Below are positions 2,813 to 63,933 of a stretch of 64,000 bases of DNA, in pieces. The first letter of the stretch is position 1. Every line of letters begins with the position of its first letter. This stretch comes from Lachnospiraceae bacterium (GTDB lineage Bacteria; Bacillota; Clostridia; Lachnospirales; Lachnospiraceae), in the NCBI GenBank assembly GCA_029067085.1, contig JAIEFE010000008.1:1-64000 (forward strand), written 5' to 3'. The notes beneath the pieces were generated by a model. That model saw only the letters and a program-made list of their open reading frames with translations. It was not told the DNA's origin and ran no database searches. Position numbers and translations under genes: made by a program.

Positions 2813-4231
2813 TTGAAAGCAAAGCGTCGCTATATCTGGGCCAATATAAAGTTGGTCGGCACCATAGTCCCCGTCGTTCTCATTATGATCGTCATCTATT
2901 TTATGCTCGTTCGCAGAGAAGTTCTGACGCTCGCCAGGGAGAAGCTTGCTCTGAGATCCCAATATTATGCGGAAGAAATCAGTACCTGGGCAAGATCGGT
3001 CTTAAATGAGGTGACGATCTACAAGACTATGATCGAACAGCTCGGTCTGGAAAACGAGACCACCTATACACTGATGGCTGCCAGCGCCGGCTCACACGAT
3101 GCCTATCCTTACGGATTGTATATGGGGGACGACCTTGGAAATTACTTTGACTCTTCCGGCTGGGTGCCTGAAGAAGACTATGTCGTATCGGAAAGAGACT
3201 GGTACATAGAAGGGCTGACTCATGACCAATTTGCTTTCGGAGAGCCCTATGTAGACGCCATGACCGGAGGTACCTGCGTGAGTGTAACCTGTCGTCTGAA
3301 CACAGCCCCCGCCGTGACGGTGCTATCCACAGATGTCTATCTTGACTATGCCTCCCAGCTTGCCAATGCCGTCACATCCGACAATATTGAACACGCTTTT
3401 TTTGTCACCAGAGAAAGCAGACTCATTGTAGCCGACTCAGACGCCGCCATGGTAGGACTCTCCCTGAACAGCCAGAGCGATTCCCTTCTCTACCTGAATA
3501 TCAGCCGTCTTCTGGATGCTGAAACAATAGGTCAAAGTGCGATTTTGGGCGATGAGAGTGTCTTTTTCGTAGATATCAACGTGATCCCCGATACCGATTG
3601 GTATTTTATTACCTGTATGAACCGTAATGAGGTGTTAAAAGATCTGTGGCGGATAGAATTTCCCATGCTGCTTTTGGCTGTGATTGCCTGCGCTGTGCTC
3701 TTTATACTGACCTCCCTCTTCTCCAGAGAGATGATCTCGATCCGCACCAAGGCGCAGCTTGACCCGCTTACCAAACTGCTCAACAGAGAGGGATTCGAAG
3801 AACTCGTGCATCTTTCACTGGAAGATCGCCCGGGACAGGGATTCCTGATGATCATTGACCTGGATAATTTTAAGCTGATCAACGATCAGCTCGGACATCC
3901 CGTGGGTGATCAGGTCCTGAAGGATTTTGCCTCTATTCTGGAAAACTACTTTAACCGAAACAAGGACATTGTATCCCGCCTTGCAGGCGATGAATTTGCT
4001 GTGTTCGTTGGTCGGGATATCACTGCAGCCGAAACAGAAAGTATGTTGAACAAATTTATATCCATCGTCCATCAGACCTTCGACTATAAGTTTCCTCATC
4101 AGAAACTTTCAGCCAGTATCGGTGCCGGTGCCGCATCCCACTGCGAATCCTATGAAGCGCTCTATCAGGCCGCTGACAAGGCGCTCTATGAAGCCAAATG
4201 GAATGGAAAGGACCGATTCCAGATCCACTAG
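2813..4231 (+). CDS. Membrane diguanylate cyclase, dCache sensor plus GGDEF
   Basis: The TTG at 2813 is preferred as start because GGGAGGAG lies 4 nt upstream and the promoter covers the earlier ATG. The 472-residue product has a membrane segment at about 14-34, a dCache-like extracytoplasmic sensor (about 40-280), a second membrane segment (about 285-308) and a C-terminal GGDEF domain. The active-site loop reads RLAGDEF, an A-G-D-E-F variant that is usually still catalytic. RNKD lies exactly five residues before it, an RxxD inhibitory site. It should therefore make c-di-GMP from GTP with product feedback, in response to an extracellular ligand. Its stop codon overlaps the stop of the convergent RND gene in a shared CTAG. 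Confidence 0.9.
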   Translation: MKAKRRYIWANIKLVGTIVPVVLIMIVIYFMLVRREVLTLAREKLALRSQYYAEEISTWARSVLNEVTIYKTMIEQLGLENETTYTLMAASAGSHDAYPYGLYMGDDLGNYFDSSGWVPEEDYVVSERDWYIEGLTHDQFAFGEPYVDAMTGGTCVSVTCRLNTAPAVTVLSTDVYLDYASQLANAVTSDNIEHAFFVTRESRLIVADSDAAMVGLSLNSQSDSLLYLNISRLLDAETIGQSAILGDESVFFVDINVIPDTDWYFITCMNRNEVLKDLWRIEFPMLLLAVIACAVLFILTSLFSREMISIRTKAQLDPLTKLLNREGFEELVHLSLEDRPGQGFLMIIDLDNFKLINDQLGHPVGDQVLKDFASILENYFNRNKDIVSRLAGDEFAVFVGRDITAAETESMLNKFISIVHQTFDYKFPHQKLSASIGAGAASHCESYEALYQAADKALYEAKWNGKDRFQIH

Positions 4232-29853: not shown

Positions 29854-30795
29854 TCAAGACTTCAGTCCGCGTTCCAGCCTTTCCCGATACCCCGGCGCGT
29901 TCTTTAACTCAAACTTATTGTTAAACATCTCGTACTCTGCATCCGGGAGCTTATCGGCAAGCTTCTCCTCCACATTGCTCTTATAGACCAGACCGCATGC
30001 CACGGAGGGCGCAAGGATCTCATCTTCAAAGGTCTGGCAGGCCCGTTTTACCCGCCAGCAGTAATCCTCCGCCTCGCCGTCCTCCGCCATGGGAATCAGC
30101 ACAATGAAAACGTCACCGTCCACACGGCCAATCACGTAATCAGGCTTCTTCTCCTGTTTCAAAATATCAGCGATCGTACGGATCAGGCGGTCACTCTCCT
30201 CGTCACCAAAGTGATCGTTGACAAATTTCCAGTCATTGATATTGAAGTTGATGACTGCCACGGGCACCACCTCTGCCCGATCGATCACCCTCATACGTTC
30301 CTCAAAATAAACCTTGTTGTACACGCCCGTGAGGGCATCCTCATTCTCCCCTCTGGCAGTCCGGACATGCTGTACGCCCAGCTTCTCCTCCAGTTCATCC
30401 ACATAAATGGCTGACTCCCTGTGGAGATAGGCCTCCTCTCCCCAATGGGAAAGCATATGGGAAAATGTGTCGAGGAGTTTCTCTGCCTCCTCTTTCTTTT
30501 CCGAAGCGACCCCGCCTGTCTTTGCATAGAGATGGGCGATCGTGCGCCCGTAGACTCTGATCTTTCTGCCCGGCTCCCCTACCACATCCGGCGTAAAGCC
30601 TGCAAAATTTCCCACACAGACCACCTTCTCGCCGTGTCTTTCCGTCAGGAGCACCTCCAGTCCGCTCACGGCGCAAAGCGCTTTCATGTACTCCGAAATG
30701 GCGTCGATTTGGTAGAGATGATCCAAGCCGTAATTCTTTACGTTATCCTTGATCCGCTGCTCAAAAGGAACCGCCTTATAGTTCATGCCCATCAT
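29854..30795 (-). CDS. Cytoplasmic protein with degenerate GGDEF domain
   Basis: A 313-residue soluble protein. The N-terminal region (about 20-120) looks like a small-molecule sensor, perhaps PocR- or GAF-like, but I cannot assign it firmly. A helix (about 125-150) leads into a GGDEF-fold domain (DALTGVYNKVYFEERM onward). The signature loop reads RVDGDVF instead of GGDEF, lacking the catalytic Glu, and no RxxD site precedes it. It is probably not a cyclase and may act as a nucleotide sensor. The start could be the first or second Met; both follow AGGAG. A good promoter is at 30834-30862. Confidence 0.8.
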   Translation of the reverse strand: MMGMNYKAVPFEQRIKDNVKNYGLDHLYQIDAISEYMKALCAVSGLEVLLTERHGEKVVCVGNFAGFTPDVVGEPGRKIRVYGRTIAHLYAKTGGVASEKKEEAEKLLDTFSHMLSHWGEEAYLHRESAIYVDELEEKLGVQHVRTARGENEDALTGVYNKVYFEERMRVIDRAEVVPVAVINFNINDWKFVNDHFGDEESDRLIRTIADILKQEKKPDYVIGRVDGDVFIVLIPMAEDGEAEDYCWRVKRACQTFEDEILAPSVACGLVYKSNVEEKLADKLPDAEYEMFNNKFELKNAPGYRERLERGLKS

Positions 30796-51917: not shown

Positions 51918-53192
51918 CTAATCATTCATTACATCTGCTGTATGCTCTACATAAAGTTGCCGGATTGCTTCAATGGAACCAAGACCTGTAATCTGTGCAT
52001 CCACGCTCTCAAAATTTCCGGAAGCCTTGAACATACTGAGCCACGAATCCTCATCTTCTCCCGCCATATCATTGTGAGCGTGGTCACCTGCTACCACCAT
52101 CAACGGACGAAGTATTACCTTTGTATAACCTGCCCGCGTCACAGCATCTATCACTGCCTCACAAGCTGTTTCCTCCGGATCGCCTTCTACTGTTCCAACA
52201 AATGCATTGACACAGCCGATGTCCGTGAATTGTGTCTGCATCTGGCTGTAACTCACCTTTGCCGTATGGTAAGTACCATGTCCCAGAAATACAAATGCCG
52301 TGCCGTCTTCCTGTGCTTCCGCCAGACTTCCATAGCCTGCGTCCGCCACGGCTGCCGCAAGAATCGCATCCGCTACCCTTGCCTTGTCCTCATTGACGAC
52401 CGATGCATCTGCGCCGACCTCGCCAAGAAGCGGCTCCGCAACCTTTACTGTTTCAAACTGGTCCCTGTATGCTTCCACTGCCTCCATCAATTCATCATAC
52501 TCTGCTCCATGCATCAGATGAGTAGGCTGCAATACCAGATTTTTCACTCCGTTTGCCACTGCACGATCCAATGCCTGATCCATGTTATCGATGAACTCAC
52601 CGTCGCGCGCCTGCACATGGTTGATGATAATCTGTGCCGTAAAAGCTCTTCTTACAGACCAGTCAGGATTTGCCGCCTGTATTGCATCCTCAATTCCTTT
52701 GATATCGTCAACACGGCTGCCGTTAAAGGAAGTACCGAAGCTGACTACCAGAATCTCATTTTCTCCGATATCATCCTGATTTCTCGGATCATCTTTGGAA
52801 GCGTCGCCTGTATCCCTGCCAAAATAATCGGGATCAGCCTCTTCTCCTTCCACCAATTCTTTCTGGGCATCCGTCAGCGCATCCCATGCCGCTTTTGCTT
52901 GCGCACACTGCGCATCGGTATCTTCTGTTCTCTGCTGCACATAGATTGCATCAATCAATGCGGCAACTTCATCCGCCGCTGCCTGATCAGAAACAGTATC
53001 ATCTTCCACTATCGGTTCGTCCGCCTGTTCCTGGTTTTCCATCTCTACTTCCGATTTTGCAATCTCCGAACTTTGCGGTTCCGTCTGAACGGTATTTTCC
53101 GCCGACGTCGGAGTATCCTTTGAGCATCCCGTCAATGCCAGTGAACTGATCATGACACCAGTCAATAAAGCTGCTAATAATTTCTTTTTCAT
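51918..53192 (-). CDS. cbiK: Exported CbiK-type sirohydrochlorin cobaltochelatase lipoprotein
   Basis: The start at 53192 has GAGGAG upstream. Unlike cytoplasmic CbiK (about 260-300 residues), this 424-residue form starts with a lipoprotein signal peptide (LALTGCSK), an acidic linker, and a helical module (about 75-120, AAWDALTDAQKELV). The chelatase fold follows (about 145-424). Candidate metal-binding His residues are in FLGHGTYH and GDHAHNDM. Classical role: insertion of cobalt into sirohydrochlorin. Outside the cell that substrate would not be expected, so metal removal from, or capture of, external tetrapyrroles is an alternative. First gene after the cobalamin riboswitch. Confidence 0.88.
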   Translation of the reverse strand: MKKKLLAALLTGVMISSLALTGCSKDTPTSAENTVQTEPQSSEIAKSEVEMENQEQADEPIVEDDTVSDQAAADEVAALIDAIYVQQRTEDTDAQCAQAKAAWDALTDAQKELVEGEEADPDYFGRDTGDASKDDPRNQDDIGENEILVVSFGTSFNGSRVDDIKGIEDAIQAANPDWSVRRAFTAQIIINHVQARDGEFIDNMDQALDRAVANGVKNLVLQPTHLMHGAEYDELMEAVEAYRDQFETVKVAEPLLGEVGADASVVNEDKARVADAILAAAVADAGYGSLAEAQEDGTAFVFLGHGTYHTAKVSYSQMQTQFTDIGCVNAFVGTVEGDPEETACEAVIDAVTRAGYTKVILRPLMVVAGDHAHNDMAGEDEDSWLSMFKASGNFESVDAQITGLGSIEAIRQLYVEHTADVMND

Positions 53193-53246
53193 CTTTTTCT
53201 CCTCTTCTTTCCCTGTCATGATACAAGGAATTTTTATATTTGTATC

Positions 53247-53282: not shown

Positions 53283-53399
53283 ATTCGTACACAAAATAAG
53301 CCTGCCGAATACGCAGATGCAAACAATAGTCCATCGTATCTTCAGCAAGTTTAAAACGTACAACCAGTTACTCGTGGTTTGAAACAAATGTTTCCGTAC

Positions 53400-53578
53400 A
53401 GCATGCAGGCAGGTCTCCCGGCTTAAAGATCATCACATCGGCCGTCTTCCCAGTTTCCCAGTGACATATCGGCTTCTACTCCCTAATTACGGTGACGAGT
53501 TCGTACAGGATTTGCACCTGTTTCCCTTTTCACCAAAACCAATGCTCATTTCACGCATTGTTTTGACACCTGTATGCT
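53400..53578 (-). promoter_or_regulatory. Cobalamin riboswitch (aptamer)
   Basis: On the minus strand the conserved order is present: GGTGAAAAGGGAAACAGGTG, then AATCCTGTACGA, then a GTCACTGGGAAACTGGGAAG segment, and the B12 box AGCCGGGAGACCTGCC. Flanks AGCATACAG and CTGCATGCT can form the closing P1 stem with one mismatch. It leads the entire cbiK-to-cbiA operon. The 474-nt gap 53193-53666 contains only this leader, its terminator and its promoter. Confidence 0.95.
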
Positions 53579-53595
53579 ATTATTCAATTGAACAA

Positions 53596-53666: not shown

Positions 53667-54359
53667 TTATAGTTCTCCTGTCTCTTTGCTAATAATCAGC
53701 GAATAATATCCCGCCGCATCCGGCATATCGGCAACCTGAAAATAAACCTGTTCTTCCTTCATTCCGCAATTTTCAACCATAACCGCAGAACGTCCGCTCT
53801 TCTTTATGAGTTCCTTGATTTCTTTCATTTTGCTTCCCGCTTTCATTAAAACATAGGTTCCTGAATCCGAAAAGGATTCTTTCATACCTTGCACAGCCGG
53901 AACAATATGAATCTGTTCATTTCCCACGGCCAGCGGCACATCTACTGTTGCTGCTGCCGCACAAAAAGACGGTACTCCGCTAATCAATTGTGTCCGAAAT
54001 CCATCTTTTTCCACAATCTGCTGAATGTAGGTAAAGGTAGAATAGATTGCAGGGTCTCCCAGTGTAAGAAATATAATATTATTTCCTTCTTTCAAAAGTA
54101 TTTCTAGCATTTCTGCATTTTCCCTATGACATTTCCCTTGTACTTCCTTATCTCGTGTCATAGGCATATGGACAGGAATCAACTGCTTGTCCGCAAGCTC
54201 CGGAACTGCTGCAACGGCGATTCTATATGCAGTTGTTTCCCTTGGTCTTTCTCCCGGAAAAGCAACTATATTATTTTCTTTGATCAACCTGACAGCCTTT
54301 AATGTCATAAGCTCCGGATCTCCCGGGCCGACTCCCACTCCATACAATATTCCACTCAT
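53667..54359 (-). CDS. cbiL: Cobalt-precorrin-2 C20-methyltransferase
   Basis: A 230-residue tetrapyrrole methylase with the LYGVGVGPGDPELMTLKAV start, FLTLGDPAIYST SAM motif and ISGVPSFCAAAA. It adds the C20 methyl using SAM, the first ring methylation after cobalt insertion. RBS is GGGGAGG. It lies on the same strand as the B12 operon but ends 43 nt before the riboswitch promoter, so it is not under the riboswitch attenuator unless another promoter setup exists. It could be co-transcribed with the EAL gene upstream, although a UUCG-type hairpin separates them. Confidence 0.96.
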   Translation of the reverse strand: MSGILYGVGVGPGDPELMTLKAVRLIKENNIVAFPGERPRETTAYRIAVAAVPELADKQLIPVHMPMTRDKEVQGKCHRENAEMLEILLKEGNNIIFLTLGDPAIYSTFTYIQQIVEKDGFRTQLISGVPSFCAAAATVDVPLAVGNEQIHIVPAVQGMKESFSDSGTYVLMKAGSKMKEIKELIKKSGRSAVMVENCGMKEEQVYFQVADMPDAAGYYSLIISKETGEL

Positions 54360-54469: not shown

Positions 54470-56212
54470 CTAATTTTTCTCTTTTAACAGCGCAAAGACT
54501 TCCTCCGCAGGCATGGGCTTTGCATAGTAATATCCCTGCACCTGATCGCAGCCGATGCTTCGCAGAAGATCCACCTGCTCCTTTGTCTCCACGCCTTCTG
54601 CCAAAAGCTCCAGTCCCAGCTTGTTGGACATGGCGACCACCTGCTCTAATATGAGTTTCCCTTTATCGGAGACCATCATGTTTTCCATGAACCGCTTATC
54701 CAGCTTGATCACATCGAAGGGCGTTTCCAAAAGAATGTTCAGAGAGGAATAGCCGCTTCCGAAGTCGTCCATCAGAAGTTTAAACCCTTCCTCCTTGAGT
54801 TGGAGCGCTTTCTGACTCACCTGCCGGTCGTCCACCGTCTCCGTGATCTCCAGTTCCAGAAGTTGTCTGGAAATCCCGGTTCTTGTGATCATATCATCCA
54901 GTACCAGAATGCATTCATCATCTCTCAGATGGGTTCTGGAGACATTCACAGAGATTGGACAAGGATCCATGTTTTCCTCCTCACACCGTTTAATAAAACG
55001 GCATGCCTCCTCCCATATATAATAATCCACCTTGCGGATAAACCCATTCTCCTCCAGGATCGGAATAAACTGATTCGGATAGATCATGCCACGTTCCGGA
55101 TGCTTCCATCTCACCAGAGCCTCCGCGCCAATGATCTCATTTTGAGCAATGCTGTACTTGGGCTGCAGATACATCTGGAACTGCCGCTCCGTGATCGCCG
55201 CCTGCATATTTTCCTCAATAAACCTTCTATTATACAGAGAATCCTTAAACTGCTCCTTATAAAAGATGATATTGCCCATCATACTGGCTTTCGCCGTTTT
55301 TCTTGCCATAGCGGCGCGGTCTTCCATCTGCCGCAGTTCCATCTGCCTGTCCTCCACCGTATACACACCGTAGGACATCTGCAGCTTTACATCCTTGAAA
55401 ATATTGATCCTGCCATTCAGCTCCTGTATAAGAGCCACCAGTTCCTCTTCCCTGTCATACTCTGTTACCACGATAAATACGTCGCTGTTTAGGTTTACAT
55501 AAAATTGTCTCTCGTTACAGAGCTCCTGAAGCTGCTTCAGGATGAAATCCAAAACCTCATCACCAAATTTCTCTCCATAAAGGTCATTAATGATCTTAAA
55601 TTTGCGAATATCAAACTGAATAAACCCGATATTCCTCTTTGATTCCAGCAGAAGATCATTGACATTCCTCCGAAAACGGCGCACTCTGCCAATTCTTTTG
55701 AGAACCACCTGCATCTCGTCATTATGCGGGATATCCTCCGGTGCGATATTGCTTTCCGACATATCTTTCAGATATTCTGCCAGCATATCCTCCAGAATCT
55801 CAATGCTGACATTGAGCGCTCTGGGGCATCTTTGCAGGATCAACCCTTCCTTACGGATGACAGCCATCTCCTCCGGAATGGAAATATCCTTACCAAGAAT
55901 CTCCCTGCACTCCGTTACGCCTTCCATCCGCTCCGTAAAGCGTCTGATAAACTCCTCTGTTTTTTTATTGCCATAGACCTCCCGTTCCGTATCCTGGGAA
56001 TCATAAAAGCCAAGTGCCATGCCAAGCACCAGCAGGGACCCGGTAATACAGCCGCAGACGCCGCCCTGTCGCATGCCACCGCCAAAGCAGGTGCTGATCT
56101 TAAACGCCGTCTTCAGATCCAACCCGAAATCCGATGCAAAAGCACCGAACAATGCCTGAGAACAATGGTATTTCTGATGTAAAAGCTTCTCCGCCTTCTC
56201 TCTATGCGTCAT
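54470..56212 (-). CDS. Redox-domain / degenerate GGDEF / EAL fusion, probable c-di-GMP phosphodiesterase
   Basis: A 580-residue soluble protein with three parts. Residues about 1-130 resemble the C_GCAxxG_C_C putative redox-active family: Cys in YHCSQALF, STCFGGGMRQGGVCGCITG, and later Cys in TECREILG and QRCPRA. Residues about 165-310 are a GGDEF fold whose loop reads LNSDVF, so no cyclase activity is expected. Residues about 330-580 are an EAL domain with EALVRW, the DDFGSGYSSL loop, KLDKRFM and LLAEGVET, matching active phosphodiesterases. The natural reading is redox- or metal-dependent c-di-GMP hydrolysis. It lies just upstream of cbiL. Confidence 0.88.
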   Translation of the reverse strand: MTHREKAEKLLHQKYHCSQALFGAFASDFGLDLKTAFKISTCFGGGMRQGGVCGCITGSLLVLGMALGFYDSQDTEREVYGNKKTEEFIRRFTERMEGVTECREILGKDISIPEEMAVIRKEGLILQRCPRALNVSIEILEDMLAEYLKDMSESNIAPEDIPHNDEMQVVLKRIGRVRRFRRNVNDLLLESKRNIGFIQFDIRKFKIINDLYGEKFGDEVLDFILKQLQELCNERQFYVNLNSDVFIVVTEYDREEELVALIQELNGRINIFKDVKLQMSYGVYTVEDRQMELRQMEDRAAMARKTAKASMMGNIIFYKEQFKDSLYNRRFIEENMQAAITERQFQMYLQPKYSIAQNEIIGAEALVRWKHPERGMIYPNQFIPILEENGFIRKVDYYIWEEACRFIKRCEEENMDPCPISVNVSRTHLRDDECILVLDDMITRTGISRQLLELEITETVDDRQVSQKALQLKEEGFKLLMDDFGSGYSSLNILLETPFDVIKLDKRFMENMMVSDKGKLILEQVVAMSNKLGLELLAEGVETKEQVDLLRSIGCDQVQGYYYAKPMPAEEVFALLKEKN

Positions 56213-56337
56213 ATTTTAACCCATCCCACTTTATTTCTATAAGCTCTTCCCTATATTTTTTATTTTACCAAATAAAAACTTTATTGTGAAGTTCAAGCTC
56301 TGTTTTTGTCAAAATCATCGCAAAACTGCCTTTCTTT

Positions 56338-62223: not shown

Positions 62224-63933
62224 ATGAAAAACAAGAGAAAAATCACCCGTAGGACTATCTTAAAGGTGTTGCTTACCGTCTATGCTTTTGTGAGTGTCTG
62301 TTTCACTGCGTCGGCGATCGACCATCTGCTCTCAAAAGAATATCCTGACATCTCCCACTGCATTACACTGAACGACTCCTGGGATATCATGATCAACAAC
62401 ACCCCCTATCCTGATGTCTCTCTGGATGATTTTCAGTTTGGCAACGTAAACAAAGGCGATACCATCACCATGACGACTGCCCTTCCCGAAAGTCTGACCC
62501 GCTCGGAGAATGCACTTTTGCTGCACACCAGACAGTGTGCTGTCAACGTATATGTGGACACCGATCAGATCTATCAGTACGGTTTGGATCGAATCGACCA
62601 AAATAAAACTGTGGGAAGCGGCTATCTGGCCGTGCAGCTTCCCCAAAATTACATAGGAAAAACGCTGAAGATCACTCTGACGGCTTCCGAAGACAAAGCC
62701 TTTACCCGCTTTGACCCGCTTCGAATCTATGAGTGGGAAAATATTTACCGCGTGCTTCTGACTGAGAACCGCCTGCCCCTGTTCTTAGGCTGCTTTCTGA
62801 TGGTCTTCGGGCTGGTGGTCTGCTGCATCACAGTTTTTGCACTGTTGTTTTCCGGAAAATTTCTGCGCATACTGTGCATTTCTGTGTTTTCCATCTGCAT
62901 CGGACTATGGACACTATGCTACTACAATGTCCTCATGATCTTCTCCATTCCACTGTACACGACCTGCCTTTTGGAATATATCTCGCTCTATCTTGCCCCG
63001 ATCCCCATGGTCCTTTATATGAGGGAGGATGTCCGCGCTCTGAACCAGCCCTTTATGTATACAATATACAAACTACTGTTTGTTCTCCAGATCGCAGCCA
63101 CCACCGGTACCATCTTTCTGCACAGCGTAAATGTGGTACACTGCGCGGCATCACTGAAATACATGCAGGCCCTGATCGTCTGCCATCTGCTCTACTCTAT
63201 CATCGTAGAGTTTATGAATCTGCGGCGCAGCCATCAACTCGTCCACAGACTGTTTCTGCTGGGTGTTCTGATACTTTTCGCCTGCGTCTCCTATGACCTG
63301 CTCTACTATAATCTGGAGCGTTATGGCGGCATGAGCATTCTCCCGACAAAGGGTATCGCTTCCTTCGGTCTGGTCCTTTTTATCTTTTTCCTGATCGTAT
63401 CCTTCTATATTAATCTGACACAGAAGATGATGCAGGAGACGGAGCGCAATTCTCTGATTAAAAGCGCCTACACCGACGAACTGACCAAGCTTCACAACAG
63501 GCGCTACTGCATGGAATACATGGACCGCATTATGGAAATGGAAAATCCGGACTATACGGTTTTCTGCTTTGACTTAAACAACCTGAAAGTTACGAATGAC
63601 ACCTACGGACACGCCAAAGGCGATCTTTTGATCAAAAGCGCCGCTGAGGTCATCGACAAGGCTTTCAGTCCTTACGGTATCGTGGCGAGGATGGGTGGTG
63701 ACGAATTCATTGCCATTGCAGAAACAGGGGACTCTCAAAAAATCTCTACCATAATAGGAGAGTTTCAGATGTGTATTGACGAAAAGAATGTGGCGATTCC
63801 CGACCTGCATCTGTCCATTGCCTACGGCCATGCCTCATGCAGTCCGAAAGAATATAATTTTGAGAAAATCTATCAGATGGCAGACAACCGCATGTATGAA
63901 AATAAGCAGGCCATAAAGCGATTGAGCGTATAA
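62224..63933 (+). CDS. 7TM (DISM-like) membrane diguanylate cyclase
   Basis: The ATG at 62224 (MKNKRKITRRTI) has AGAGGA 9 nt upstream and follows the PHP stop by 13 nt. The 569-residue protein has an N-terminal membrane anchor (about 10-32), an extracytoplasmic beta-rich domain (about 33-180), about seven membrane helices (about 185-400) and a C-terminal GGDEF domain with intact RMGGDEF. No RxxD inhibitory site precedes it. The layout resembles 7TMR-DISM receptors. It should make c-di-GMP in response to an external signal, without classic product inhibition. Confidence 0.9.
   Translation: MKNKRKITRRTILKVLLTVYAFVSVCFTASAIDHLLSKEYPDISHCITLNDSWDIMINNTPYPDVSLDDFQFGNVNKGDTITMTTALPESLTRSENALLLHTRQCAVNVYVDTDQIYQYGLDRIDQNKTVGSGYLAVQLPQNYIGKTLKITLTASEDKAFTRFDPLRIYEWENIYRVLLTENRLPLFLGCFLMVFGLVVCCITVFALLFSGKFLRILCISVFSICIGLWTLCYYNVLMIFSIPLYTTCLLEYISLYLAPIPMVLYMREDVRALNQPFMYTIYKLLFVLQIAATTGTIFLHSVNVVHCAASLKYMQALIVCHLLYSIIVEFMNLRRSHQLVHRLFLLGVLILFACVSYDLLYYNLERYGGMSILPTKGIASFGLVLFIFFLIVSFYINLTQKMMQETERNSLIKSAYTDELTKLHNRRYCMEYMDRIMEMENPDYTVFCFDLNNLKVTNDTYGHAKGDLLIKSAAEVIDKAFSPYGIVARMGGDEFIAIAETGDSQKISTIIGEFQMCIDEKNVAIPDLHLSIAYGHASCSPKEYNFEKIYQMADNRMYENKQAIKRLSV

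Follow-up and report, generated by a model that had tools for sequence, protein, structure and literature searches.

Several cyclic di-GMP phosphodiesterases combine a sensor, a degenerate or regulatory GGDEF domain and an active EAL domain in one chain. DosP/PdeO does so with a haem PAS domain, RmcA/PA0575 and CdgF with a flavin PAS domain, and CC3396/PdeA belongs to the same class. In CC3396 of Caulobacter, the degenerate GGDEF domain binds GTP and thereby activates the EAL domain (PMC4823724). Redox inputs other than haem or flavin also occur on such enzymes. Escherichia coli PdeC carries a cysteine-containing redox input, the CSS domain, on an EAL phosphodiesterase, and Bhr-HD-GYP joins a non-haem iron redox sensor to a c-di-GMP phosphodiesterase (PMC9388753). 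Inputs through haem, flavin, globin, haemerythrin and disulfides are listed in a 2022 census of c-di-GMP sensors, from which the term iron–sulfur is absent (PMC8846402).

Stand-alone members of the C_GCAxxG_C_C family (PF09719/TIGR01909) are proteins of about 140–160 amino acids. Of 391 Clostridia genomes sampled, 221 contain the domain. Its redox activity is called putative in all sources found, and a search of the open-access literature returned no biochemical data on any stand-alone or fused member. In Clostridium ljungdahlii, family genes lie beside iron–sulfur oxidoreductase genes (PMC5640608).

In the window analysed here, a stretch of 64,000 nucleotides from a Lachnospiraceae bacterium, these two protein families meet in a single gene. 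The minus-strand open reading frame begins with ATG and encodes 580 amino acids; its start is nearly fixed since a stop codon lies immediately 5′ of the ATG (open frame 581). The N-terminal domain scores 82.2 bits against Pfam PF09719 (cut-off 27, E 3.9e-23) and 61.5 bits against NCBIfam TIGR01909 (cut-off 47.4). The original prediction had read the protein as a C_GCAxxG_C_C domain followed by a degenerate GGDEF and an intact EAL domain, and these scores, far above the curated cut-offs, bear it out (Table 1). A lack of any significant family match at the N-terminus, which was to have refuted that prediction, clearly does not apply. No obvious membrane segment is apparent. A cysteine domain thus stands where DosP, RmcA and CdgF have PAS, haem or flavin sensors. 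The periplasmic sensing of PdeC through membrane segments and its CSS motif are both missing from the fusion protein, while Bhr-HD-GYP differs by its di-iron haemerythrin fold and its HD-GYP catalytic domain. Targeted searches of the open-access literature found no paper on the C_GCAxxG_C_C–GGDEF–EAL architecture. The sensor architecture is new; the sensor–GGDEF–EAL class is already known.

Table 1. Position of the fusion gene, its parts and its neighbours within the window
Feature	Positions	Strand	Evidence or remark
C_GCAxxG_C_C–GGDEF–EAL protein, 580 aa	54470..56212	-	ORF, profile matches, orthologs
C_GCAxxG_C_C domain (PF09719), residues 15-143	55784..56170	-	E 3.9e-23
C17	56162-56164	-	
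C42	56087-56089	-	
C53	56054-56056	-	
C55	56048-56050	-	
C102	55907-55909	-	
C129	55826-55828	-	
Linker, residues 145-182	55667..55780	-	5% of columns invariant
Degenerate GGDEF domain, residues 183-311	55280..55666	-	Pfam E 1.7e-14
NSDVF replacing the GGDEF signature (mostly RSDVF in orthologs)	55475..55489	-	
EAL phosphodiesterase domain, residues 334-566	54515..55213	-	Pfam E 8.3e-65
Promoter-like element TTCACA-N17-TAAAAT with TG extension	56262..56290	-	49 nt 5′ of ATG
cbiL	53667-54359	-	110 bp 3′ of fusion gene, same strand
Cobalamin riboswitch	53391-53588	-	between cbiL and cbiK

The fusion is not unique to this genome. A genome scan with residues 1–237 confirmed 123 loci, and the analysis used the best 80 of them. 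These belong mostly to Lachnospiraceae or other uncultured gut Clostridia, apart from a few odd MAG labels. Nearly all of them encode the full-length fusion at 68–93% identity; the exceptions are two loci which run off their contigs (L041, L063) and one which is split over two frames (L096). A search for other proteins of the same architecture, as had been proposed, therefore yields about 80 full-length Lachnospiraceae orthologs. Within the family, 6 of 299 genomes, the window's own included, carry the fusion at an identity of at least 70%. Below these orthologs the next relatives in the same draw drop to about 45% identity and are mostly stand-alone domains, and a genome of the same genus as the window genome (G060) gave no match. 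Among the matches listed for a draw of 391 genomes of the class, no such fusion lies outside Lachnospiraceae. The distribution looks like that of a single fusion event within Lachnospiraceae which was patchily retained.

Selection has kept the protein as a unit. The dN/dS ratio lies between 0.027 and 0.116 across the three domains, where dS is measurable. A chance fusion or an assembly artefact is ruled out by these low values together with the full-length orthologs. In the alignment of 81 orthologs, the share of columns with an identity of 97% or more is 45% in the cysteine domain, 5% in the linker, 31% in the GGDEF domain and 49% in the EAL domain. The cysteine domain is constrained as strongly as the EAL domain.

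All six cysteines of the N-terminal domain are found in every ortholog resolved there, two cells of the 81-sequence alignment being X. C17, C53, C102 and C129, together with G46, are invariant in 40 diverse family members (window protein included), and G54 and G64 are nearly invariant across the family. The two later cysteines had been expected at about residues 105 and 125; they are in fact C102 and C129. The core motif reads C-G-C in the window protein and in all 81 fusions instead of C-G-A: position 55 is Cys in 81/81 fusions and Ala in most stand-alone relatives. CGC also occurs in two stand-alone relatives (L029 and L126), while others have CGS, CGT or CSA. Ala after CG is common, rather than defining, in this family. 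C42 is constant in the fusions and common among the stand-alone relatives from Lachnospiraceae. The stand-alone proteins thus share the four invariant cysteines and the full domain length with the fusion, to whose domain the closest of them are 42–45% identical, whereas C55, a constant C42 and the GGDEF–EAL module are additions of the fusion. An AlphaFold2 model of the domain is compact and all-helical (pLDDT 96.8). In the linker, residues 161–172 are modelled with a pLDDT below 50, and a helix spanning residues 165–190 runs into the GGDEF domain.

The structures closest to the GGDEF–EAL module are those of PA0575/RmcA, MorA and DosP. In the EAL domain, E364, N423, E455, D482, D483, K503, E539 and Q559 are conserved in 79–81 of 81 orthologs, the rest being X or gap. 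The GGDEF signature has decayed: both glycines are replaced (by Arg or Asn, and by Ser), and the fourth position, which is acidic and catalytic in the signature, is Val in 81/81. The NSDVF reading holds for the window protein and fails as a general signature, as 79 of the 81 sequences have Arg at position 242 and most orthologs read R-S-D-V-F. An RxxD inhibitory site, frequent in diguanylate cyclases and not required, is absent: the window protein has Asn at position 233 and Gln at 236, the latter shared by 80/81 sequences. D201, N209, D210 and D218 are conserved in the GGDEF domain, with the guanine-recognition positions N209 and D218 kept in 80–81 of 81. Because the catalytic EAL residues are kept and the cyclase residue is lost, established knowledge of both families predicts that the EAL domain is very likely an active c-di-GMP phosphodiesterase and that the GGDEF domain is a catalytically dead cyclase. 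Its nucleotide pocket is possibly regulatory, by analogy with Caulobacter CC3396. Four further cysteines in the EAL domain (C404, C410, C418 and C434, at about 54911-55003 on the minus strand) are 96–99% conserved in the orthologs and may indicate a second site, of thiol or metal type.

Sequence profiles connect the N-terminal domain with a protein of known structure. Residues 51–105 of PDB 1h21, a 55-residue piece of split-Soret cytochrome c of Desulfovibrio desulfuricans, match PF09719 with 28.3 bits (gathering cut-off 27, E 2e-6), and a profile of the divergent subgroup L141/L144/L145/L146 reaches the same entry at E 4e-4. A second block of this match is weak and collinear and holds the later cysteines. 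The columns of C53, C102 and C129 align with cysteines of 1h21, whose remote PF09719 stretch has the CGAxxG motif and the two later Cys columns. The L144-type subgroup was the only one to reach 1h21; searches by sequence with the window domain alone or with the A1 and A3 profiles found no solved structure, and a Foldseek search of the domain model against the PDB returned nothing similar (best E 7). Judged by sequence profiles alone, PF09719 appears remotely homologous to split-Soret cytochrome c.

Split-Soret cytochrome c is an exported dihaem protein and, to our knowledge, the sole PF09719 relative with a reported cofactor in its protein. The fusion protein, unlike it, has no CxxCH haem motif anywhere in its 580 residues and no export signal. 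The additional centre of the cytochrome was reportedly recognized by EPR as an iron–sulfur centre, possibly [2Fe-2S], which is missing from the crystal. A 'novel iron centre' in this cytochrome is announced by the title of Abreu et al. 2003 (cited in PMC5701242). A Geoglobus protein annotated as C_GCAxxG_C_C also has two haem motifs (PMC4600277), which fits the link between PF09719 and the cytochrome.

In the reading we favour, the protein is a soluble c-di-GMP phosphodiesterase of the cytoplasm, the N-terminal C_GCAxxG_C_C domain controls its activity and the GGDEF domain serves as a relay; we give this composite reading even chances. The cysteine domain would most likely hold a redox-labile site, iron–sulfur or another metal, on four to six of its cysteines, and O2, NO, iron supply or the redox state of an electron carrier would alter this site. 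The change would then pass through the variable linker and the helix to the dead GGDEF domain and from there to the EAL domain, whose c-di-GMP hydrolysis may be either raised or lowered. Gating by the cysteine domain is fairly probable and gains weight from the invariance of the cysteines in about 80 orthologs and from the profile link to split-Soret cytochrome c. For a metal or Fe–S site as such, the odds appear about even. Invariance across one clade is on its own no proof of a cofactor, because the cysteines of the EAL domain are nearly as conserved. The broader proposal, that C_GCAxxG_C_C is a general iron–sulfur (possibly [2Fe-2S]) sensor module and the fusion family an Fe–S-gated c-di-GMP phosphodiesterase, is tentative and somewhat doubtful.

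The same cysteines could act without any metal. Pairs such as C53/C55 with C42 would form reversible disulfides in the cytoplasm under oxidative stress and thereby change phosphodiesterase activity; C55 and C42 are indeed additional to the four family-invariant cysteines, C55 is nearly fusion-specific, and disulfide gating of an EAL enzyme has a precedent in E. coli PdeC (PMC8846402). Such a switch nevertheless seems unlikely, given that disulfides are rarely used in the reducing cytoplasm of anaerobes and that the title of the work on split-Soret cytochrome c reports an iron centre. As PF09719 reaches 1h21, for which this iron centre is reported, a plain thiol switch is no likelier than an Fe–S or other metal site. 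A cysteine-rich site might also report the supply of iron, zinc or another metal rather than a redox state. The family member BT0631 of Bacteroides thetaiotaomicron belongs, with an Nramp transporter gene, to an iron-responsive set (PMC10434189), whose response may go in either direction. However, no metal-uptake gene is consistently found near the fusion and its neighbourhood is unconserved, and we regard a metal sensor as decidedly improbable.

The N-terminal domain may, on the other hand, be a structural or localization module for dimerization or docking to a redox partner, which does no gating, while GTP binding by the GGDEF domain regulates the enzyme. N209 and D218 are retained in 80–81 of 81 orthologs though the catalytic residue is gone, CC3396 offers a precedent (PMC4823724), and PF09719 is found fused to unrelated enzymes. 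Mere docking accounts poorly for six invariant cysteines, and the loss of both signature glycines may weaken triphosphate binding, which makes this explanation improbable too. Other C_GCAxxG_C_C fusions involve GNAT, MarR-GNAT, DUF402, an AadA-type nucleotidyltransferase and ketopantoate reductase (loci L015, L019, L120, L121, L124, L125 and L127); at L127 the domain is joined to what is, by eye, an apparent NifX-type domain. Considering this variety, C_GCAxxG_C_C is a mobile, promiscuous accessory domain and not always obviously a sensor. PF09719 need not be one, since GNAT, ketopantoate reductase and the nucleotidyltransferase are enzymes without evident sensing role.

With regard to the output of the gated phosphodiesterase, the genome encodes 8 EAL domains, 23 GGDEF domains, one PilZ protein and five flagellin-type matches. 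This inventory makes flagellar motility or adhesion the probable output. If the favoured reading is true, a cytoplasmic cysteine or Fe–S input would place the motility and adhesion of anaerobic gut bacteria under the influence of oxygen, NO or iron. Should C_GCAxxG_C_C be a general iron–sulfur sensor module that gates this enzyme, c-di-GMP signalling would gain a class of cofactor new to it, and a widespread orphan domain would have its first function. The phosphodiesterase readout would be a convenient assay for the orphan C_GCAxxG_C_C family. Three more GGDEF genes lie in the window, at 3752-4216 (plus strand), 29914-30342 (minus strand) and 63466-63912 (plus strand).

Upstream of the fusion gene, the search used detects the promoter-like element in 48 of 81 orthologs, with a spacer of 17 in 45 of these 48. 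The −35 box is TTCACA in 38 of the 48 sites and TTGACA in only two; its non-consensus C is retained across genera, and the sequence around the element has mostly diverged between orthologs. CTTCACAA occurs in 32 upstream regions against 0.2 expected from base composition, counts which are inflated by relatedness. From this conserved element, the fusion gene is probably expressed as its own transcription unit. The form CTTCACAA-N13-TG-N-TA(A/G)AAT also occurs upstream of loci L005, L006, L035–L042 and others. The pattern has one further occurrence in the genome, and no regulon was found. A Rex operator was considered for the upstream TTCACAA and rejected, as the aligned sites show, on inspection by eye, no recurring left half-site.

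The original prediction had left open whether the position next to cbiL is accidental or ties the protein to corrinoid metabolism. No cbiL was found near any of the 80 other loci, and no cluster of shared neighbours extends beyond about 10 of 76 loci. The cobalamin riboswitch lies downstream of cbiL, ahead of cbiK and transporter genes. A link to cobalamin metabolism via cbiL is rejected on account of both the singleton status of cbiL among the neighbours and this riboswitch position, and the adjacency appears accidental. Beyond the riboswitch, 51918-53219 (minus strand) encodes a CbiK-family cobaltochelatase whose lipoprotein signal has the lipobox ALTGC. Next come genes for a lipoprotein with weak NEAT similarity, for a substrate-binding protein, for FecCD and for an ATPase, all downstream of the riboswitch. 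The CbiK-family protein would be an extracytoplasmic CbiK encoded within an operon for B12- or haem-type uptake. Elsewhere in the same genome (contig C9:169000-174500), two stand-alone C_GCAxxG_C_C genes stand in tandem, one of them with extra cysteines. By eye, they adjoin a MATE-type transporter gene, with an AraC-type regulator and an iron-type alcohol dehydrogenase nearby.
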